From: a virus
Virus record (IMG/VR): IMGVR_UViG_3300046809_000115
Coordinates: 1-29,275 of that record
Strand: one strand, 5' to 3'
DNA length: 29,275 nt
The position numbers were made by a program, and so were the translations under genes. Under the pieces are notes generated by a model. It had not been told where the DNA came from. It did no database searches and saw only the letters and a program-made list of their open reading frames with translations. Below, piece after piece: positions 5,204 through 26,016 of the stretch (position 1 is the first letter of the stretch; each line of letters begins with the position of its first letter).

Positions 5204-6980
5204 TGTATAGCGCCTCCATATCCATATCGTCGTCTAGTGCTAGTGAGAAGGTGAACTTATCCGGTCGTGACGCGAGTTTGACCGGCTTATCGGACCCACC
5301 CGTTCGGCTTTTGAGGGTGTGAAGCTCGTAGTGATCACTACTCGGCGGCCTCCAAAGAGAGAGGACACTAGCCGCGTCTGTGGCACCGTAAGTACTCCCA
5401 TAAAAATCCGCAAGTGTCGGGGGCTTATTGCCGTCCAAAACATTCGGTTTCCTATTGTGATGAATAATGTAGAAAGTGCATTTGTATTCATTGAGCATCG
5501 CTTTCAACTGGTTGTTGATGTTTTTAGCTGTATCCTCTTTAAGTTCTGAGTAGCTCAGAGAGGACATGGCGTCGATGATAACAACGTCAGGTTTCACTTC
5601 ATCCATTACATACTTGAAGAATGTCAGTGTTTCCTGATTGGCAAAAGGCATAGGCTCACCAACGGGGACAAGCCAGAAGTTCTCTTGAAGCTCATCCTCA
5701 TTGTAGCTATTCTCTTTAGCAAGGTTAGAGGCGAAGTGCTTCAGCATTGGGTGTCCCATTTCCAAAGAAAAGAACACTACCTTGTTTCGGCCTAATGTCT
5801 TCCAAGACAAGAAGTCTTGGCCCGTCGCAAGTGAAGCACCTAGCTGGATCGCTAATCTGGACTTTCCCACACCGGGAACAGCGGTCAGAAAGTTGATCGT
5901 CTGCTTTCCTATTAGGTCTTGTACTATCCATTCAAACTTAACCTCCGTTTTAAGGAAGTCACCAAAGCGGAATAGCTTCTGAATAGGTTCTTGTGTCTGT
6001 TCTTCCCTCACAAAGACCGGAGAGGGATACTTCTCCCGAACCTTATAGATGAACTCCACAAGGCGACGATTGCGGTCATGACGACCAGTGAACTTACCCC
6101 AGCGTTTATCCACGTCATCAAGAACGCAGAAAATCGCCTCATCAGTCATGCCTACTTCTGCGCCGAAGTAAGCAAGTCGGGCCATAGCGTTACCGCGTCC
6201 CGAATGGTCCTGAGATTTTTCATTCCAGAACTGTTCTTTACCTGCTGAGAAAAGATCAGAGTGTTGGTTATCCCACGGATACTTACGAAAGACCGTATCA
6301 ATATCAGGGATATCGCCAAACTCTGCAATCTCGGTTAGCTGTACTCTAACACCCGGGAGGTCTTTGAACTGGGCCGGGGTGTAAATCTTCCCGGTGTATT
6401 CAATGATATCCACAGCGGGAGCGGAGCCGTCTTTATTGGCTCGCTTTTTCTTGTGGTTGTGCGTGAATGGCGGCCTAAGAACTCGGTCGATATTCCAGCA
6501 CGCTCTATCAGCGTCGAGGTAGTAGGCAATTCGACGGTTGAGGGTTTCAATAATATCCGGTGCATAAATTCCATCCAGAATCCAGTACCAGTGCTGGGCA
6601 TTCTCACTTGAACTCTGTATGCGATAAGTAGGTGGTGGTATGAGACCTTCATCTACCAATTTCTGCAAGGCATCCTTAGGCCGGGCTTGGCCTTCGTTAT
6701 CCCCTTCAAGCTCTATCCAGAGTACCCTTGCACCAATAGCGTTTGCTTTTGTCTTTTCCTTTGACCCGTCTTGGTAGTGGGCCATTGAATAGTATACGTC
6801 CATCTTCGCGTCTTGTGCGATGAAGAACTCTACTATGGAATCTTGCTTATCTCTCCACGAAGTGATAAGCGGCGAAACGCTAAAGAGGTTTGGCTCTGGT
6901 TTTGTAGCGAGGAATACGTTAGCACTCTCCGGCCCCCAGATATCCCCCAGAAATTTGAGAGTGCCAAGCTTCTCTGACAT
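5145..6980 (-). CDS. Primase-helicase (PrimPol-like plus RecA-fold ATPase)
   Basis: A 611-residue two-part replication protein. Residues about 30-200 resemble archaeo-eukaryotic-type primases (PrimPol/RepB-like): an acidic strand VLWIELEGD, then SSSENAQHWYW with the typical S-x-H position, then LRPPFTHNHK. Residues about 345-560 form a RecA/DnaB-type ATPase with Walker A AVPGVGKS (367-374), Walker B VVIID (466-470) and a His pair IIHHNR (507-508). It would unwind the fork and lay primers for the downstream polymerase. The first primase acidic motif has Glu where Asp is usual, so priming activity is less certain than ATPase activity. The ATG follows AAGGGGAG. Confidence 0.85.
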   Translation of the reverse strand: MSEKLGTLKFLGDIWGPESANVFLATKPEPNLFSVSPLITSWRDKQDSIVEFFIAQDAKMDVYYSMAHYQDGSKEKTKANAIGARVLWIELEGDNEGQARPKDALQKLVDEGLIPPPTYRIQSSSENAQHWYWILDGIYAPDIIETLNRRIAYYLDADRACWNIDRVLRPPFTHNHKKKRANKDGSAPAVDIIEYTGKIYTPAQFKDLPGVRVQLTEIAEFGDIPDIDTVFRKYPWDNQHSDLFSAGKEQFWNEKSQDHSGRGNAMARLAYFGAEVGMTDEAIFCVLDDVDKRWGKFTGRHDRNRRLVEFIYKVREKYPSPVFVREEQTQEPIQKLFRFGDFLKTEVKFEWIVQDLIGKQTINFLTAVPGVGKSRLAIQLGASLATGQDFLSWKTLGRNKVVFFSLEMGHPMLKHFASNLAKENSYNEDELQENFWLVPVGEPMPFANQETLTFFKYVMDEVKPDVVIIDAMSSLSYSELKEDTAKNINNQLKAMLNEYKCTFYIIHHNRKPNVLDGNKPPTLADFYGSTYGATDAASVLSLWRPPSSDHYELHTLKSRTGGSDKPVKLASRPDKFTFSLALDDDMDMEALYNEPDSNPNPPLGFGFGAMG

Positions 6981-11055: not shown

Positions 11056-11084
11056 AGTGTAGCATGGTATAGAGCCGGTGTCAA
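11056..11084 (-). promoter_or_regulatory. Promoter of the recombination/replication block
   Basis: On the minus strand: TTGACA (11084-11079), a 17-base spacer ending in TGC, then TACACT (11061-11056). It matches the design shared by other leftward promoters in the window and lies about 40 bases before the Cas4-like start, overlapping the end of the HNH gene. It would give this block a start point of its own. Confidence 0.72.
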
Positions 11085-15638: not shown

Positions 15639-15678
15639 GGTTACTCCTGATAGATGGGCGCATATCACTGTCGTTTAA

Positions 15679-15703
15679 GACTACGGGCATTCCTTCCCGA
15701 GTC
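15679..15703 (-). other. Leader hairpin downstream of an early promoter
   Basis: GACTACGGG / CCCGAGTC pair as an 8-bp stem with one bulged base and an 8-base loop, in the first ~25 bases of the transcript expected from the promoter at 15707-15736. It may stabilise the message or regulate the membrane protein gene. Confidence 0.4.
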
Positions 15704-16377: not shown

Positions 16378-16592
16378 TAGTCATCCGTTCCAAAGATTTC
16401 TTCTTGACAGGCAGGGCAATAACCAGTCAAGAGTCGTTCCCTTGTGGTAGCTGTTAGATCAGGGAATGCCTTTTGAACAGACATACGCTTATTCTTCCAA
16501 TTGTCTAGTCCTTCTTTGGGCAAGAAGACTACACCGGGGCGGTTACAGGCTGGACATACTATACCAACCTGTACCATCGTGCGTTCACTCAT
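16377..16592 (-). CDS. Zinc-ribbon protein
   Basis: A 71-residue protein with CPAC (residues 13-16) and CPAC again near the end, a classic two-knuckle ribbon around a basic helical stretch. AAAGGG lies before the ATG, and a strong promoter lies just upstream (16605-16633). It leads a short run of at least four coupled genes. Function unknown. Confidence 0.72.
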   Translation of the reverse strand: MSERTMVQVGIVCPACNRPGVVFLPKEGLDNWKNKRMSVQKAFPDLTATTRERLLTGYCPACQEEIFGTDD

Positions 16593-16604: not shown

Positions 16605-16633
16605 AGGATAGCACGGTTATGACATTCTGTCAA
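16605..16633 (-). promoter_or_regulatory. Strong early-type promoter
   Basis: On the minus strand: perfect TTGACA (16633-16628), a 17-base spacer ending in TGC, then TATCCT (16610-16605). It overlaps the stop of the previous gene (16630) and lies 13 bases before the zinc-ribbon start at 16592. Confidence 0.8.
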
Positions 16634-17858: not shown

Positions 17859-17887
17859 AGCTTAGCAAGTATTCGGTAGCTTGTCTA
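17859..17887 (-). promoter_or_regulatory. Promoter of the Lsr2-domain gene with palindrome
   Basis: On the minus strand: TAGACA (17887-17882), a 17-base spacer ending in TGC, then TAAGCT (17864-17859). A perfect 12-base palindrome GCTGATATCAGC (17850-17861) overlaps the -10 and expected start point, a natural operator position. The leader to the ATG is about 70 bases. Confidence 0.7.
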
Positions 17888-19525: not shown

Positions 19526-19969
19526 TTACTTATCCTGTTCTGTGGTATTGGACGCAGTGGTAGTGAAGTCGAACATGTATTCCATGATAACCATAGTATC
19601 GCCGCCGGTCTTAGGGTAGCCATAGCGGTTATCTTTGAAGTTCACAGTGCTTACACCGTTAGCATCGACAGCTTCAGGTACAGCCATTTGTGCAAGGCAT
19701 ACAGCCAAGCCCCAAGGCATATCAGTTCTATCAGTAAAGACAGTGACAGTACCGTTGCCATTAGCAGTCTCTTCAAAGTCCACAGTGACAAGGTAGCCGG
19801 TGTTACGAAAGCCGGTGAAGATATAGCTCTCGTATTCTTTGGTTCCCATGTAGACGTTGTACTCACGCCCACCTGCGGCGTTCAAGCTTTTGTTATCGTT
19901 GTCTACAGGTATCAGGATATAATTGATACCGTAATAGTCAAGCACATTCTTGTGGGTCAAGATAATCAA
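19526..19969 (-). CDS. First gene of the leftward early arm, unknown function
   Basis: A 147-residue acidic protein that starts with TTG at 19969; no Met is available near the N-terminus, and the upstream AGAAAG is a modest ribosome-binding site. It is a mixed alpha/beta protein (NVLDYYGINYILIPVDNDN, YLVTVDFEETANGNGTVTVF) with a Thr-rich tail. It is the first gene after the multi-promoter control region, about 45 bases from the nearest predicted start point, so it is expected to be among the earliest and strongest expressed. Confidence 0.66.
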   Translation of the reverse strand: MIILTHKNVLDYYGINYILIPVDNDNKSLNAAGGREYNVYMGTKEYESYIFTGFRNTGYLVTVDFEETANGNGTVTVFTDRTDMPWGLAVCLAQMAVPEAVDANGVSTVNFKDNRYGYPKTGGDTMVIMEYMFDFTTTASNTTEQDK

Positions 19970-20018
19970 CTACTTTCTAACTCGTTGTATGTGTATGATG
20001 TTTTGCTTTGTTGTTACC

Positions 20019-20047
20019 AGCTTAGCACGATTACTTTATCGTGTCAA
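20019..20047 (-). promoter_or_regulatory. Early promoter, nearest to the first gene
   Basis: On the minus strand: TTGACA (20047-20042), a 17-base spacer ending in TGC, then TAAGCT (20024-20019) followed by GGTAACA. It sits about 45 bases upstream of the first leftward gene. Confidence 0.78.
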
Positions 20048-20060
20048 ACTAACGTTGTGC

Positions 20061-20098
20061 TCTGTTATAGCGGGTTGGTAACTCACCGCTATAACAGA
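20061..20098. other. Perfect 13-bp hairpin
   Basis: TCTGTTATAGCGG / CCGCTATAACAGA with a 12-base loop, placed between the two promoters nearest the first gene. The AT-rich stem without a T-run does not look like a terminator. It may be an operator or a leader RNA structure in transcripts starting upstream. Confidence 0.6.
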
Positions 20099-20110
20099 AG
20101 ATCATGTAAG

Positions 20111-20136
20111 TGTGTATGAACTGTCGTTCATAACAC
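20111..20136. repeat. Inverted repeat at a promoter start point
   Basis: GTGTATGAAC / GTTCATAACAC with a 4-base centre and one bulge, lying where transcription from the promoter at 20138-20167 should begin. This position suits a repressor operator. Confidence 0.45.
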
Positions 20137-20137
20137 C

Positions 20138-20167
20138 AGCTTAGCAGGTCCACTAAGGTACTGTCAA
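20138..20167 (-). promoter_or_regulatory. Early promoter
   Basis: On the minus strand: TTGACA (20167-20162), an 18-base spacer ending in TGC, then TAAGCT (20143-20138) followed by GGTGTTA. It shares the -10 and the downstream GGT with the promoter at 20019-20047. Confidence 0.75.
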
Positions 20168-20315
20168 GCTTATGACGTTTAGAGTGACATGTGGATGTCA
20201 TAAGAGTCGAATATGTCAGTGAAAATGTCCGAACATGTGTTCGAAGAATTACTGACATTTACTGACAAGACAACTGACATACCACTGGCATGTTCGATGA
20301 CATGTTCGAACCTTA

Positions 20316-20353
20316 TTGTTGTCAGTATAGTCGAAGACAAATACTGACAACAA
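20316..20353. other. Second perfect 13-bp hairpin
   Basis: TTGTTGTCAGTAT / ATACTGACAACAA with a 12-base loop, the same arm and loop lengths as the hairpin at 20061-20098 but a different sequence. Each arm carries one TGTCA/TGACA pentamer. It lies downstream of the promoter at 20403-20431. Confidence 0.6.
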
Positions 20354-20402
20354 CAATTGATAAGTGTTTTTGCCCTTATCTACCGTGATCTTCCTGTTAC
20401 CA

Positions 20403-20431
20403 AGATTAGCACAATTGATAAGAACTGACAA
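20403..20431 (-). promoter_or_regulatory. Early promoter
   Basis: On the minus strand: TTGTCA (20431-20426), a 17-base spacer ending in TGC, then TAATCT (20408-20403) followed by TGGTAACA. The 12-base block ACAATTGATAAG in its spacer (20411-20422) recurs at 20353-20364. Confidence 0.7.
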
Positions 20432-20499
20432 ATCGTATGACATATACAAGCGTACCGTCCATAAGCGTTACTGCCTAGGCGGAATAACTTGATATCTCC

Positions 20500-20528
20500 A
20501 TTAAAGCACGCATTTGGATTAGTGTCAA
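20500..20528 (-). promoter_or_regulatory. Early promoter at a duplicated element
   Basis: On the minus strand: TTGACA (20528-20523), a 17-base spacer ending in TGC, then TTTAAT (20505-20500). The -35 lies in the first copy of a tandem 18-base repeat. Confidence 0.72.
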
Positions 20529-20562
20529 TCTCTAATGCAGTGTCAATCTCTAATGCAGTGTC
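20521..20562. repeat. Tandem 18-base repeat carrying the -35 element
   Basis: AGTGTCAATCTCTAATGC occurs at 20521-20538 and 20539-20556 without a gap, followed by a partial third copy AGTGTC (20557-20562). Each full copy contains one TTGACA on the minus strand, but only the first has a good -10 at the right distance. Confidence 0.85.
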
Positions 20563-20594
20563 CGGGTTATTGGCGTCCCGGTGGCCATATCTCT

Positions 20595-20623
20595 ATTAAG
20601 CCAGAGATAAGACCATCTGTCAA
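20595..20623 (-). promoter_or_regulatory. Early promoter inside an inverted repeat
   Basis: On the minus strand: TTGACA (20623-20618), a 17-base spacer ending in TGG, then CTTAAT (20600-20595). The arms TATCTCT (20588-20594) and AGAGATA (20603-20609) flank the -10 and could form an operator. Confidence 0.55.
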
Positions 20624-20797
20624 TACCAGAGCATACTAAGTATATATGGCCCTTATAGGTGTAAAGGAACGCGCACGCGCATGTACGCGCATAAGCACGC
20701 GATGATAACACAGCATATAAAGCTTACGCAATAGGTGTACGCCGACAGTTACGCGAATCCACCCAGTTTATAGGTTGCGGCCCCTGTGGGCGCACGA

Positions 20798-20826
20798 CAA
20801 AAGACCGGCCCCTTGCGGGACCGGCC
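20798..20826 (-). terminator. Rho-independent terminator with GCAA loop
   Basis: In minus-strand RNA GGCCGGUCCC pairs with GGGGCCGGUC (ten pairs including two G-U) around a GCAA tetraloop, followed by UUUUG. It lies just behind the two-gene unit that ends at 20849 and separates it from the early promoters. Confidence 0.85.
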
Positions 20827-20848
20827 TCTAGTCTGGTGATAGGACTAG

Positions 20849-21082
20849 CTAGGCTCCTATCACTCGGATGACTCCTGTCGTCAGGACCAACTCTTCTACG
20901 TGCTGGAATGCGAAACCAAAGGGCAGGATATCGTTCAGGCCCATGATGTAGAAGACGGACGAGACAGAGACAACGCCGATCCAGATGATCTGCTTACGCT
21001 TGTGCTCTACCATCATGTGACGTTCGCAGGCGATAACGTCTACGAGAGTGGACGGGGACTGGTCTTTTGAGTGCTTGGACAT
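20849..21082 (-). CDS. Small membrane protein
   Basis: A 77-residue protein from Met 21082 (TAGGAG just upstream; the longer frame to 21136 lacks a site). The N-terminal ~30 residues are polar (MSKHSKDQSPSTLVDVIACE), followed by a membrane helix (IIWIGVVSVSSVFYIMGL) and a second hydrophobic stretch near the end. Its 3' end lies in a 9-bp inverted repeat GTGATAGGA / TCCTATCAC. Function unknown. Confidence 0.68.
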   Translation of the reverse strand: MSKHSKDQSPSTLVDVIACERHMMVEHKRKQIIWIGVVSVSSVFYIMGLNDILPFGFAFQHVEELVLTTGVIRVIGA

Positions 21083-21159
21083 GGCTCCTACTTTCCTACG
21101 GTGGTACTCGGATGGGATAGGGCAGTTTATCCACATGCCCTAGGTGGTGAGTGCTACCT

Positions 21160-21528
21160 CTATGCTTCAGCGATAGCTGACAGGTTGCCCGGGATGAAGC
21201 GTCCCATTGATACGCCAGTCATCTTTGTGTGGCGGATACGCGGGCTGGCGTTGACCTTGTGGGTCTTAGGCGCAGGGTACGTGTCCAGAGCCTTAATGGT
21301 TTCAATGACTCCGGTAAAGCGGGTACGGATAAGCTGGCGCGTCCCCTTGGAGTCCATCACAAAGTAGTAGAAACCATTCTCGCCCTTGTCGGCGACGGCA
21401 GCAAAGCGCTGGCCCTTGGAGTCGGACAGGTAAACGTACTCGCCATTGACGTTGGTAGTAACGAGTACTGAATCGTTGCGCAGTGCGGACGTGATGCGGG
21501 ATGCGAGCTTGCGGGACTGAACAGACAT
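21160..21528 (-). CDS. Basic hypothetical protein
   Basis: A 122-residue, strongly basic protein with beta-strand patterns (VLVTTNVNGEYVYLSDSKGQ, GFYYFVMDSKGTRQLIRTRF). AGGAG lies 7 bases before the ATG. It is transcribed away from the terminase arm under its own promoter, so it could be an early regulator or a nucleic acid binder; no motif confirms this. Confidence 0.7.
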   Translation of the reverse strand: MSVQSRKLASRITSALRNDSVLVTTNVNGEYVYLSDSKGQRFAAVADKGENGFYYFVMDSKGTRQLIRTRFTGVIETIKALDTYPAPKTHKVNASPRIRHTKMTGVSMGRFIPGNLSAIAEA

Positions 21529-21583
21529 TTGAATCTCCTACGTAGTACTCGGGCCGATCGGCCGGTTGGTCGATCTATGGCCT

Positions 21584-21612
21584 ACTATGCCAGCCTCTAA
21601 CCATGTTGTCAC
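21584..21612 (-). promoter_or_regulatory. Leftward promoter of the two-gene unit
   Basis: On the minus strand: GTGACA (21612-21607), a 17-base spacer ending in TGG, then CATAGT (21589-21584). It lies about 55 bases before the 122-residue protein's start and is back to back with the rightward promoter at 21669-21698. Confidence 0.5.
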
Positions 21613-21668
21613 CTATTCCAGCCAGTTTAGTCTTTGCGGTTAAACCCTCTCCGAATTTTTTATGACCC

Positions 21669-21698
21669 TTGACCTTCTCTATACCATGCACGTACTCT
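21669..21698 (+). promoter_or_regulatory. Rightward promoter of the terminase/portal arm
   Basis: TTGACC (21669-21674), an 18-base spacer, then TACTCT (21693-21698), 26 bases before the first rightward start codon. The -35 is the same as that of the whiB-like gene promoter. A T-rich tract (about 21655-21661) lies just upstream. Confidence 0.5.
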
Positions 21699-21723
21699 CT
21701 GGATATACCTGAAAGGAAAACAC

Positions 21724-21891
21724 ATGGCCTCTCTTCTCAGCACTATGCGTAAAGAAGCTAAGGATAAGTTGAAGCAGGAATTGCTTAGTGCTTACCGTTG
21801 GTTAGCCGACGGTAATACTCACGCTCCTGACGGAACTAATCTTCGTGTGTATATCGACCAATTGGAACGTAAGATCAAGGAAGCACCGTGA
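21724..21891 (+). CDS. Small helical protein, 55 residues
   Basis: The frame MASLLSTMRKEAKDKLKQEL to LERKIKEAP is a charged, mostly helical protein. AAAGGA lies 6 bases before the ATG, and the stop overlaps the next gene's GTG start as GTGA. It is the first gene of the rightward arm. Function unknown. Confidence 0.75.
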   Translation: MASLLSTMRKEAKDKLKQELLSAYRWLADGNTHAPDGTNLRVYIDQLERKIKEAP

Positions 21892-22502
21892 ATCCCATTG
21901 AGCACTTCATCAAGATACATGGCACATCGCCAGCTATCACTGAGGCTCTCGCCCATTTGGATAACCCTTTGGATGCCGACGGGATACCTCGTGTACTCAA
22001 TAGAACAACACTGGCTGAACTCGCGGGTGTTACATACCCCGTCGTACACCGTACTGAACTTGCTCTCTTCGAAAAAATACCCCCTAAGCTACTAGCCTTT
22101 ATGCAGAAGTACGGTAAGTCCTACGACGATTATCCGGGGACATACAAGAGACACCGTGCTACTATCGAAGCTCAGCATATCCTTCAGGAGAAGGGTCACT
22201 CACGTAGAGACGTGAAGCATTGGCTCAACGAGGATATCGAAAGTATTAACGTGCGCATCCCTATTCTTACCTTCAAGGATTGGCGGTCGAGGCATTTCGG
22301 GTCGGTCATGCAAATGGCTAAGGTACTCCTTATTAACCCGACGATCATTGCCAACTACGAGAACGGTCAGACACGCTCTTTGCCTGTGGGAGTAGCGCGC
22401 CAGTTCAGGCGGTTCGGTATGGAGCAGGGACTCATTAACCAGATCGCTAAGCTTGAATGCCCCAAACCCACAGAAGGAACTGACACCGATGAAACAGCTT
22501 AA
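21888..22502 (+). CDS. Helix-turn-helix DNA-binding protein, GTG start
   Basis: A 204-residue protein starting with GTG inside the previous gene's stop. Two helix-turn-helix-like segments are visible: TLAELAGVTYPVVHRTELAL (about 41-60) and an XRE-like VMQMAKVLLINPTIIANYENG (about 140-160), with a basic middle (TYKRHRATIEAQ). It could be the regulator of the divergent promoter region beside it, or a DNA-recognition component of packaging, given the terminase genes that follow. The sequence does not decide. Confidence 0.75.
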   Translation: MNPIEHFIKIHGTSPAITEALAHLDNPLDADGIPRVLNRTTLAELAGVTYPVVHRTELALFEKIPPKLLAFMQKYGKSYDDYPGTYKRHRATIEAQHILQEKGHSRRDVKHWLNEDIESINVRIPILTFKDWRSRHFGSVMQMAKVLLINPTIIANYENGQTRSLPVGVARQFRRFGMEQGLINQIAKLECPKPTEGTDTDETA

Positions 22503-22707
22503 AGTACTTATCCCGGATACCAAGTGCTTGGAGTGCGGGTGGCAGGTAAACCGTAAGCGTGCAGAGGCGGCTGACTGGACGGAAGTAATCTACTGCGACG
22601 GTAGTGGTATGGCTATCCGAAAAGAGTACATCTGCAACAACTGCGTAGACTCCGGCGAATGGCAGCACGATAAGTTCGAAGAACGATGGACACACCCTAA
22701 TGAGTAA
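22489..22707 (+). CDS. Zinc-binding small protein
   Basis: A 72-residue protein from Met 22489 (GAAGGAA upstream; an upstream in-frame Met at 22453 lies inside the previous gene without a site). CLECGW and CNNC provide four cysteines for a zinc ribbon. It overlaps the genes on both sides. Function unknown; its place before the terminase suggests a packaging or regulatory role. Confidence 0.72.
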   Translation: MKQLKVLIPDTKCLECGWQVNRKRAEAADWTEVIYCDGSGMAIRKEYICNNCVDSGEWQHDKFEERWTHPNE

Positions 22708-23533
22708 CGATCCTAGTAAAGACAACATAGGGCTTAGTAGTTATATCCCACGAGAACTAAGGGCAGGCGAGGATGAAGTTCCCGATACTTACGAACGCGG
22801 TGCTATTAGTGTTTTTGGTCTTGGGCCTAGTCGGCTTGATCTGGAGCATAGTCGTGCTGCTAGTGAAGTAAAGAAGTACGCACCACAAAGCGACAGGCTC
22901 CACAACGGAGTAGTAATCGTCGCCAGACGGCTGTTTATGCAAAATCAGCCGGTTAACGCTGAGAACGTCATTAGAGAGTGGGACACTACTAATACCGTCC
23001 TGCCTGATATCGGATTCGTCCGCGCCTATATGGAGACTGAGGAATTTAAGCGCAAGCTGGATACTATCGGCGGCCGGAATATTCCCGGTGGTCTTACGCA
23101 CGCGCAGGAAGCGTTCATTACTACGCTGACCTATCCTGACGGTAAACCGCTTCACATGAAGATGAAGAAGCATAAGATTCCTTGGGTTACTTTTCAGGGC
23201 TGGCTCAAACAGCCCAAGTTCCTTGAACACCTTATGCTAAGTGCCGAACAGGCTCTTGATGCGTCTCAAGCCTTTGCTCTTATCCAGTTGGTACAACAGG
23301 CGGCTGGGGGTAACAGCAAGGCTATGGACACTGTGCTGGCTATGACCGGGCGTTGGGACCCCACCAATAGGAAGCAGGTGGACGCACAGAAGATGGTGGG
23401 TATAATCTTGCAGGTATTGGACGAAGAGATTTCCGATCCTGAGCTTAAATCTCGGATCGGTAATAGGCTGTCTATCCTTAGCGCGGCTACGGCTGAATCT
23501 CCCTCCCATACCGTATCAGGAGAACTGGGCTAA
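22700..23533 (+). CDS. terS: Probable terminase small subunit
   Basis: A 277-residue protein. The middle part (LTHAQEAFITTLTYPDGKPL, then HKIPWVTFQGWLKQPKFLEHL) resembles the helix-turn-helix of small terminases of the phBC6A51 type, where a tryptophan-containing recognition helix follows a short turn. The C-terminal part is helical (ALIQLVQQAAGGNSKAMDTV, GRWDPTNRK). Position upstream of the large terminase supports a role in recognising the packaging site. Two small genes separate the two subunits, so the call is moderate. Confidence 0.6.
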   Translation: MSNDPSKDNIGLSSYIPRELRAGEDEVPDTYERGAISVFGLGPSRLDLEHSRAASEVKKYAPQSDRLHNGVVIVARRLFMQNQPVNAENVIREWDTTNTVLPDIGFVRAYMETEEFKRKLDTIGGRNIPGGLTHAQEAFITTLTYPDGKPLHMKMKKHKIPWVTFQGWLKQPKFLEHLMLSAEQALDASQAFALIQLVQQAAGGNSKAMDTVLAMTGRWDPTNRKQVDAQKMVGIILQVLDEEISDPELKSRIGNRLSILSAATAESPSHTVSGELG

Positions 23534-24123
23534 TGGCCGTACCCACAACCTATTATAACCTTCTTAAGCCAGCTACGGGCGAGACGTATGACGTTAACCT
23601 TCTCGACACCAACTACGATAAGATCGACGCCGCGCTTAACAGCATTAACACTACCCCGACAAAGATGGACAACCAGTTGGTCTTTGTATGTAACGGTATT
23701 ACCTACACGGCGGCTACCGTAGGTGACTGCGGTGTTCTGCACATTGATACAGGTACAGCGGCATCTTCCCAGCTTAGTAACCCTCAACCTTCCTTCGCAA
23801 CGCCGGGTTCTGTCTCAGGCTCTATCAAGATTACTCAGGCGGGTATCTACGATATCCAGTGGTATAACTCCCCCGGTGCTAATCCGGGTAGCCAAGGGTG
23901 GATCATTCAGATGAACGGTACATGGCCCGGTCCTCCTGATTCGGCTAACAGTGTCTTTTGCAAGAATAACGTTGCCTCCGGTTCCCAGTATTGGGAATCA
24001 ACGACTGTTGCTCTTGGTGTGCGTGTACCTACTGCCAACCTTGAAGTTAAGTTTACCGGGATTCTTACTAACGGTGTCGCGGTTGCGTCCCACATTAAGG
24101 TTATTCAAAGGAGTAAGTTCTAA
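23533..24123 (+). CDS. Virion appendage-like protein
   Basis: A 196-residue protein with a TAATG start. The N-terminus TYYNLLKPATGETYDVNLLD resembles the start of phage tail-fibre or appendage proteins. Residues about 75-196 have the look of a beta-sandwich or C1q/TNF-like jelly-roll (GVLHIDTGT, GSIKITQAGIYDIQWYN, VALGVRVPTANLEVKF). It may decorate the capsid or bind the host. Its place among terminase genes, not tail genes, is notable. Confidence 0.6.
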   Translation: MAVPTTYYNLLKPATGETYDVNLLDTNYDKIDAALNSINTTPTKMDNQLVFVCNGITYTAATVGDCGVLHIDTGTAASSQLSNPQPSFATPGSVSGSIKITQAGIYDIQWYNSPGANPGSQGWIIQMNGTWPGPPDSANSVFCKNNVASGSQYWESTTVALGVRVPTANLEVKFTGILTNGVAVASHIKVIQRSKF

Positions 24124-24434
24124 TGTCTATGGACCCCGGAATGGGACAGGATCAGACTAGCGGGCAACAGCAGGCTCAGATGCCTATGGACCCTGTGAGT
24201 AACAGGCTGTTCCATGCTTTCTCTGACGTAGATAGTGACACTAATGCACAGCACCACACACTAGGCCCCGGCGTTAATCAGGCCGCTAGTGGTGCGCATA
24301 GCCATGACGGCAATAACAGTCCGCTTCTCTTTAGCGGAACCATTACTGGATCACGCGGAGGTAATGCGGCAGTAGCCAACCTTATCTCCCTGATCTGCTC
24401 TCAAACGAATTTTGTCGATGGTACAACGGCGTAG
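24123..24434 (+). CDS. His/Gly-rich virion-like protein
   Basis: A 103-residue protein with a Gln/Met-rich N-terminus and the segment AQHHTLGPGVNQAASGAHSHDG, a metal-rich pattern seen in phage structural and fibre proteins. It ends with a hydrophobic helix and TNFVDGTTA. It is coupled to the previous gene by TAATG and overlaps the large terminase start. Probably a partner of the preceding appendage-like protein. Confidence 0.6.
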   Translation: MSMDPGMGQDQTSGQQQAQMPMDPVSNRLFHAFSDVDSDTNAQHHTLGPGVNQAASGAHSHDGNNSPLLFSGTITGSRGGNAAVANLISLICSQTNFVDGTTA

Positions 24435-26016
24435 TAACCCAAGAGAATTGTCCTTTGAGGATGCACTTGCTTCTGTGGGAAATACCCTAAAGAACACAGC
24501 ATTCCTGCCTAACGTATTTCACCATAAGCCATACCCTAAACAGGAATGGTTTCACCAGTCTCAGAAGCACGGACGCCTTTTCATTGGAGGTAACCGTACA
24601 GGTAAGACTGTAGCAAATGTGGTGGAATGCGTCTGGTGGCTGACTAAGACGCATCCTTATAGGGTCATGCCTCGGGAGCCTGTACGCGGGCGTTTCGTCA
24701 CCGTTGACTTCAAGAACATTATCAAGCCTGTCACCATTCCGCTGTTTAAGCAGTACATGCCTCAGCAATACCTGATTAACGGTAACTGGGAAGACAGCTA
24801 CGATAAGCAGACTGATACCCTGCATTTGAATAACGGTAGCTTTATTGAGTTCATGAGTTACGAACAGGAGACGGATAAGTTCGCATCTGCCTCCCGTCAC
24901 TTTGTTTCATTCGATGAGGAACCGCCACAGGATATCTTTGAAGAATGTGGTGCTCGTCTTATTGATACCAATGGTTCATGGTGGATGAGTATGACCCCGT
25001 TGTTCGGTATGACGTGGGTCTATGAGCGTATCTATGAACCGGCCAAGGATAACCCCAACCACCGCTTCTTCATTGTGCAGGCAGATATGGCGGATAACCC
25101 GTATCTTCCCCCGGAATCTCGTGACGCCTATCTCGCTACCCTTAGTGAAGACGACAGGCGTGCACGTGAAAAGGGTGACTTTGTGCAATTGGGTGGAAAG
25201 GTATTCAAGAACTTCCAGCCCCGGATTCACCGGATACCCATGAGTGAGTTTGAACTCACCAGCGATATGCGTATCTATACCTCTGTTGACTCTGGCTGGG
25301 TTCACCCTACCGCATGGCTATGGCACGCGGTAAAACCAGATGGAACTATCATTACGTTCTTTGAAATGAGGGATAGCTATGTCACTATCGAAGGATGGGC
25401 CCAGCGAGTCAAAGCCTATGAGTCCACGCTTAAGTACAAGGATACGGGTCAAAGAGCTAAGGTCTACCTTAGAACGGGCGATCCTGCACTTAGACAGACT
25501 AGGGCCAATACTGGAATATCAGATATCGGCGAGTACGCTAAGCACGGAATCTATCTCGCTGTCGAAGGCGTACCAACAGGACCTGATTCAGTTGATACAG
25601 GATTGCGAAAGTTTGATGAATACCTTCAGATTAATCCCCTGACGAAACAACCTACATGGCATTATGTAGAAAACTGTGTCCTGCTTGAAGATGAAATGCT
25701 TAAGTACCACTGGGAGACATGGGCCAGCAAGAAGCTGGAATCCAAGAATGCTCCCAAGACTAAGCCCCACAAGAAGCACGACGACCTCTGTGATTGCTTG
25801 CGTTACTTCATTACCACAATGCCTGATCTGTCTTTTGATGATTCTGTACCTACGAAGCAGGTCACTGATAGATTAGGTGCAGTAGCAGATATTCCTTTTC
25901 CCTTTACTGATCAGCCCAACAGTGGCGAGAAGGAATATAGGGATTTCGGATCACTTGAAGGTGATTCGGGCTATATACTGCACGACGAATATTCAAGCTG
26001 GGAAATGGAGTGGTAA
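24418..26016 (+). CDS. terL: Terminase large subunit
   Basis: A 532-residue packaging motor from Met 24418 (a TTG two codons earlier is the alternative). The ATPase has Walker A GGNRTGKT (about 57-64), Walker B HFVSFDEE (about 161-168, with the catalytic acidic residue) and a MTPLFGMTWVYE coupling motif. The RNase H-like nuclease has a first Asp in YTSVDSGWVHPTAW, a second in RTGDPALRQ and a terminal pair in KHDDLCDCLRYF. It cuts and pumps phage DNA into the prohead through the portal encoded 1 kb downstream. Confidence 0.96.
   Translation: MVQRRSNPRELSFEDALASVGNTLKNTAFLPNVFHHKPYPKQEWFHQSQKHGRLFIGGNRTGKTVANVVECVWWLTKTHPYRVMPREPVRGRFVTVDFKNIIKPVTIPLFKQYMPQQYLINGNWEDSYDKQTDTLHLNNGSFIEFMSYEQETDKFASASRHFVSFDEEPPQDIFEECGARLIDTNGSWWMSMTPLFGMTWVYERIYEPAKDNPNHRFFIVQADMADNPYLPPESRDAYLATLSEDDRRAREKGDFVQLGGKVFKNFQPRIHRIPMSEFELTSDMRIYTSVDSGWVHPTAWLWHAVKPDGTIITFFEMRDSYVTIEGWAQRVKAYESTLKYKDTGQRAKVYLRTGDPALRQTRANTGISDIGEYAKHGIYLAVEGVPTGPDSVDTGLRKFDEYLQINPLTKQPTWHYVENCVLLEDEMLKYHWETWASKKLESKNAPKTKPHKKHDDLCDCLRYFITTMPDLSFDDSVPTKQVTDRLGAVADIPFPFTDQPNSGEKEYRDFGSLEGDSGYILHDEYSSWEMEW

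Follow-up and report, generated by a model that had tools for sequence, protein, structure and literature searches.

The early promoters A1, A2 and A3 of phage T7 are three tandem promoters for the host polymerase. In Cluster A mycobacteriophages an operator overlaps the Pleft promoter. Pleft of L5, D29 and StarStuff drives leftward early transcription and leads into some 500 bp of non-coding sequence, and StarStuff and D29 are reported to make large amounts of a structured non-coding RNA from it (PMC5712189). M. chelonae rrnA was reported to have five promoters, and a study of M. kumamotonense reported that mycobacterial rrn leaders contain a conserved boxA antitermination element (PMC10218544). 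The phages Jasmine, Casserole and Adat (Jasminevirus) have a control region of 650–700 bp that is bounded upstream by a terminator-like hairpin and contains a repeat array and a single strong leftward promoter, TTGACA-N17-TACGCT, adjoining the first gene (L003:15111-15139, L011:3717-3745 and L012:2596-2624, where L003 is Jasmine). Here we compare these systems with a stack of five promoter-like sites at the head of a leftward phage operon.

The window, the whole stretch of 29,275 bases that was analysed, is a virus record and part of a phage of ~46 kb, represented solely by metagenome contigs, that is kin to Arthrobacter phage Jasmine. Its primase/helicase is ~46% identical to the homologues of the Arthrobacter phages Casserole, Adat and Jasmine and has more distant kin in Microbacterium phage Shocker and Cellulosimicrobium phage DS1. 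Weak DNA matches to Casserole, Adat and Jasmine came from the packaging genes at the right. Because contig G001 (40,708 bases) matches the window with 100% identity as far as 19804 and then from 25045 through the last position, the two can be joined into a circular map of ~46 kb. The control region lies within the sole stretch of the window that is absent from G001. The leftward operon encodes Lsr2-like, SNF2-type helicase, exonuclease, AAA-ATPase, primase/helicase and DNA polymerase proteins. No integrase or repressor gene was noticed among the proteins scanned, which came from part of the ORFs. The phage is probably a lytic, Jasmine-like actinobacteriophage, and its relatives suggest actinobacteria such as Arthrobacter as hosts.

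The first gene 3' of the stack (19526..19969, minus strand) encodes a protein of about 144–147 aa for which a database search returned zero relatives; compared pairwise, it and Jasmine gp57 showed no significant similarity. Searching phage and plasmid DNA with the control region likewise gave zero matches, and searches for a close relative holding that region gave only a contig of the same phage, ending at window position 19804, or nothing. Rfam and tRNA scans of the window had zero matches. Small ORFs across the region (e.g. 20049-20258) were set aside as they have no visible ribosome-binding site.

The initial annotation read this region as five minus-strand promoters of one design with operator-like repeats between them. 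All five sites were located, each scoring at least 10 with a two-hexamer matrix that includes a term for TG before the −10 (threshold 10); the matrix is our own and was made after that annotation had been read. P1 (20019..20047) is TTGACA-N17-TAAGCT (score 12.9, predicted start near 20012), P2 (20138..20167) is TTGACA-N18-TAAGCT (score 12.6, predicted start 20131), P3 (20403..20431) is TTGTCA-N17-TAATCT (score 10.9, predicted start 20396) and P4 (20500..20528) is TTGACA-N17-TTTAAT (score 14.4, predicted start 20493), the spacer ending in TGC in each. P5 (20595..20623; score 11.1, predicted start 20588) can be read as TTGACA-N17-CTTAAT, with a spacer ending in TGG, or as N18-TTAATA. It has the weakest −10 of the five, and its core lies inside a hairpin repeat (fold z −3.5). 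All five sites have a TG-type extended −10 and hexamers 17–18 bp apart, and no flanks beyond the hexamers are common to all of them. The single design held only for P1–P3, which follow the pattern TTGNCA-N17/18-ending-TGC-TAAKCT-(T)GGT; P4 and P5 form another group with TTAATRGAGATAT in common (repeat D11). An exact 12-mer, TGCTAAGCTGGT, spans the −10 of both P1 and P2 (repeat D13), and P2 is the only exact match in the window to TTGACA-N15-18-TGCTAAGCT, with 0 expected.

At threshold 10, positions 19970-20700 contain 5 sites on the minus strand and 0 on the plus strand. The rate over the whole window is 0.21 sites per 731 nt per strand, and dinucleotide shuffles (n=500) gave a mean of 0.38 sites and a maximum of 3. 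Among related phage loci (238 strand-loci, 2.93 Mb of strand) the maximum was 4 sites per 731 nt, reached twice. Upstream of the terminase gene in ~50 loci, some of which may miss the control region, leftward clusters never exceeded 2 sites. A stricter scanner based on TATAAT found fewer sites than in shuffles, with no excess, and listed 0/5 of the sites, because TAAGCT and TAATCT score poorly against TATAAT. Promoter-like hexamer pairs of the sigmaA type are thus in excess of chance by the two-hexamer matrix, and not by the TATAAT-based scan.

In alignment A3, P1 falls on the promoter found in Jasmine, Adat and Casserole, the match including the initially transcribed bases GTANCANCAA, and like that promoter (TTGACA-N17(TGC)-TANGCT) it stands at the head of a leftward replication operon. 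Terminator-like hairpins occur at the matching place in Jasmine, Casserole and a further relative, L032, and ACTGACA sits immediately next to the −35 of the Jasmine-type promoter in 3/3 cases (L003:15140, L011:3746 and L012:2625). Jasmine, Adat and Casserole differ from the window in having a single strong promoter, relatives have other repeat arrays at this place (GGATAG in Jasmine, TTTACACT in L032), and P2–P5 have no counterpart in the relatives examined. These comparisons place the promoter design in the lineage as a whole, with P1 as the member that has been conserved. Since Jasmine, Adat and Casserole have one promoter and it aligns with P1, the stack is probably an expansion of a single-promoter arrangement to which P2–P5 were added later. 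With replication genes downstream and an ortholog of P1 kept in relatives, the assignment of the region as an early control region facing the leftward operon is well supported.

That five promoters are more than one operon usually needs, as had been proposed, is somewhat too strong a statement given the five of M. chelonae rrnA and the three of T7, but the number does exceed that at this place in every relative examined. The arrangement is real and non-random, and its kind is already known, because T7 and mycobacterial rRNA operons also have host-type promoters in a stack. As in T7, several promoters of the host-polymerase type lie in tandem at the start of an early operon; unlike in T7, the operon runs leftward, the sequence is unrelated and no phage RNA polymerase was noticed among the proteins scanned. 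The locus also resembles Pleft of L5, D29 and StarStuff in having a predicted leftward early promoter with a non-coding leader of about 500 bp behind it. Those phages, in contrast, have a single promoter with an operator and stoperators bound by an L5-type repressor. In the window ACTGACA is confined to the control region apart from two copies, and no repressor was noticed among the proteins scanned, a pattern that sets the locus apart from the Cluster A class.

The closest likeness in sequence form is to rRNA operons. TTGACA-N17/18-TAAGCT is found upstream of several rRNA operons of Arthrobacter and mycobacteria, likely hosts among them; P1 and P2 have this form fully and P3 nearly, and P4 and P5 do not fit it. 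The suggestion of very strong early expression is plausible in that P1–P3 share the −35/−10 form of several actinobacterial rRNA promoters, which can likewise be stacked. Unlike an rRNA operon, the stack would drive phage protein genes and has operator-like arrays, and the antiterminator element was not detected. The window is without the rRNA-leader-like element GTTGTTTGAGAACTTAATAGAG of Jasmine, Adat and Casserole. A GTTGTTTGAGAACTNAATAG-like sequence is present in the control region of Jasmine, Casserole, Adat and L032, and a GTTGTTTGAGAACTCAATAG-like element in Jasmine, Adat, Casserole, L032 and, weakly, DS1. The GTTGTTTGAGAACTCAATAG form occurs in >100 bacterial genome stretches, those listed being actinobacterial, and in one stretch checked with Rfam the 16S rRNA gene follows it at a distance of 171 bases, suggesting that it is the boxA antitermination element of rrn leaders. 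In several host operons TTGACA-N17/18-TAAGCT precedes this element. A search of the window's control region for a GTTGTTTGAGAACTCAATAG-like element found none.

In a bolder reading, which we consider improbable, the lineage copies the control of host rRNA operons: the relatives would pair one rRNA-like promoter with an antiterminator element, and in the window the antiterminator would have been replaced by multiplied rRNA-type promoters gated by host SOS (LexA) and ACTGACA sites. Comparison with the relatives makes rRNA-operon mimicry in actinobacteriophages directly testable. The GTTGTTTGAGAACTNAATAG leader element lies in the early control region of relatives, on the minus strand at L003:15504-15525, L011:4110-4131, L012:2989-3010, L032:5633-5654 and L014:24749-24770. 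When viral contigs were scanned for the exact pattern, 14 stretches matched; at least one of them (L249) resembles a host-type leader. A likeness of P5 to the tail of Jasmine's leader element was discarded, as 7% of random segments equal it.

Read leftward, the control region begins with the terminator-like hairpin, P5, an 18-bp duplication, P4 and P3, continues with a 217-bp stretch of ACTGACA sites, two LexA-like sites and a long inverted repeat, and ends with P2, an inverted repeat, P1 and the gene at 19969. The operator-like repeats reported between the promoters are real and comprise ACTGACA sites, palindromes, the duplication and hairpin repeats. Seven ACTGACA/TGTCAGT sites, candidate operators, lie in 20214..20430 (at 20214, 20251, 20261, 20273, 20320, 20343 and 20424) versus 2 in the remaining 28.4 kb of the window, and the P3 −35 overlaps the site at 20424-20430. 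A LexA-type (SOS box) palindrome, CCGAACATGTGTTCGA, with 1 mismatch to TCGAAC-N4-GTTCGA, is found at 20229..20244, between P3 and P2 and about 60 bp upstream of the latter. The LexA consensus of S. venezuelae is tCGAAC-N4-GNNCGa, with a weakly conserved first base (PMC9380542), and the palindrome fits it except at that base. A second, imperfect LexA-like site with 2 mismatches lies at 20294..20309 and reads TCGAACATGTCATCGA on the minus strand. Between P2 and P1 is a near-perfect inverted repeat (I1, 20060..20101; fold z −4.5), a putative hairpin or palindromic site, and a long inverted repeat at 20313..20356 (I5; fold z −5.9) contains two opposed ACTGACA sites. The P4 −35 sits in an exact tandem duplication of AGTGTCAATCTCTAATGC, 2 × 18 bp (20521..20556; repeat D7), and a TTGACA without a −10 is present at 20541-20546. 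Upstream of the stack an intrinsic terminator-like hairpin followed by UUUU is encoded on the minus strand at 20803..20826 (−29.1 kcal/mol, z −6.0). An insulated, regulated region is supported because of this terminator and the 7-to-2 enrichment of ACTGACA.

We favor, with a probability of about 0.72, the view that the stack is a host-sigmaA promoter region of the leftward early operon in which P1 is ancestral and the upstream promoters are modulated through operators. Host RNA polymerase with the primary sigma factor (sigmaA) would recognise all five sites. The group would have had one ancestral promoter, represented here by P1; P2 and P3 resemble duplicates of P1, and P4 and P5 would be extra promoters lying further upstream. 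The rRNA-like form of P1–P3 would favor heavy initiation right after DNA entry and strong expression of the leftward operon, and the terminator would insulate these promoters from the leftward gene that lies upstream of them. The ACTGACA array and the LexA-type palindrome are probable operators through which a phage or host protein may later modulate the upstream promoters. If active, the stack would be a natural set of strong actinobacterial promoters and would illustrate a way for a lytic phage lineage to boost its earliest transcription, namely by gaining host-type promoters.

Other functions have been weighed against this model, several of which can coexist with a promoter role. The TTGACA-like words could be mainly binding sites of a phage regulator, with P1, and perhaps P2, as the only working promoter. 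TGTCA/TGACA words are indeed dense, including the TTGACA that has no −10 and the ACTGACA array, and the relatives manage with one promoter. This reading seems doubtful, as the sites have no common flanks beyond the hexamer yet each carries a TG-type extended −10 at 17–18 bp, and an integrase or repressor gene was not noticed among the proteins scanned. Direct control of the early region by the host SOS repressor LexA would account for one good and one imperfect SOS box within 81 bp; it is rather unlikely given that the boxes were not found in the control regions of the relatives and overlap no predicted promoter, and that the second site departs from the consensus.

If the region were mainly a replication origin or packaging end, its repeats would be iterons or terminase sites and the promoter words secondary. 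In Jasmine a strong hairpin inside the homologous region marks the start of the 1330-bp terminal repeat, and the relatives carry other repeat arrays there. Such a role leaves unexplained why five hexamer pairs with correct spacing occur on one strand only; it can in any case coexist with promoters, and we regard it as improbable that it is the main one. The stack might also exist to make an abundant structured non-coding RNA from the leader, an explanation to which we assign a very low likelihood. The minus-strand leader at 19961-20493, counted from the predicted P4 start, folds far better than shuffles (z −7.25), about 500 nt are without a convincing gene, and the position at the head of a leftward operon is similar to the StarStuff/D29 case. 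Palindromic operators, however, would yield an equal folding signal, and this signal may merely reflect the palindromic sites; covariation gives no support because the relatives align poorly here.

Several minor observations concern genome ends and replication. Contigs of the same phage (G001, L016, L017 and L019) start or stop inside window positions 19804-25045, which could reflect genome ends or a repeat. Jasmine (KU160650.1) has an exact 1330-bp terminal repeat, 1-1330 and 45394-46723 (L003:15395-16724), whose inner edge is a strong hairpin in the region homologous to the control region. The sequence AATCCACCCAGTTTATA (window 20756-20772) resembles AAATCCACCCGGTTTATT (L032, about 5761-5778) and ATATCCACCCGGC (Jasmine, L003 about 15667-15679), each shortly downstream (leftward) of a terminator-like hairpin; it is possibly a packaging or replication site. 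A DnaA-box cluster was rejected, the 15 hits at ≤1 mismatch being scattered over the window with none clustered at the control region. The sole perfect DnaA-box consensus, TTATCCACA, is at 21127-21135, near the start of the leftward gene 20849-21136.

The promoter design of the stack recurs inside the operon at 11056-11084, 16605-16633 and 17859-17887. The copy at 11056-11084 has a counterpart in Jasmine, TTGACA-N17-TACACT (L003:8615-8643), and both lie upstream of the exonuclease gene. The strong promoter-like site at 16605-16633 (score 14.2) stops 13 bases short of the ATG at 16592, which implies a nearly leaderless transcript.
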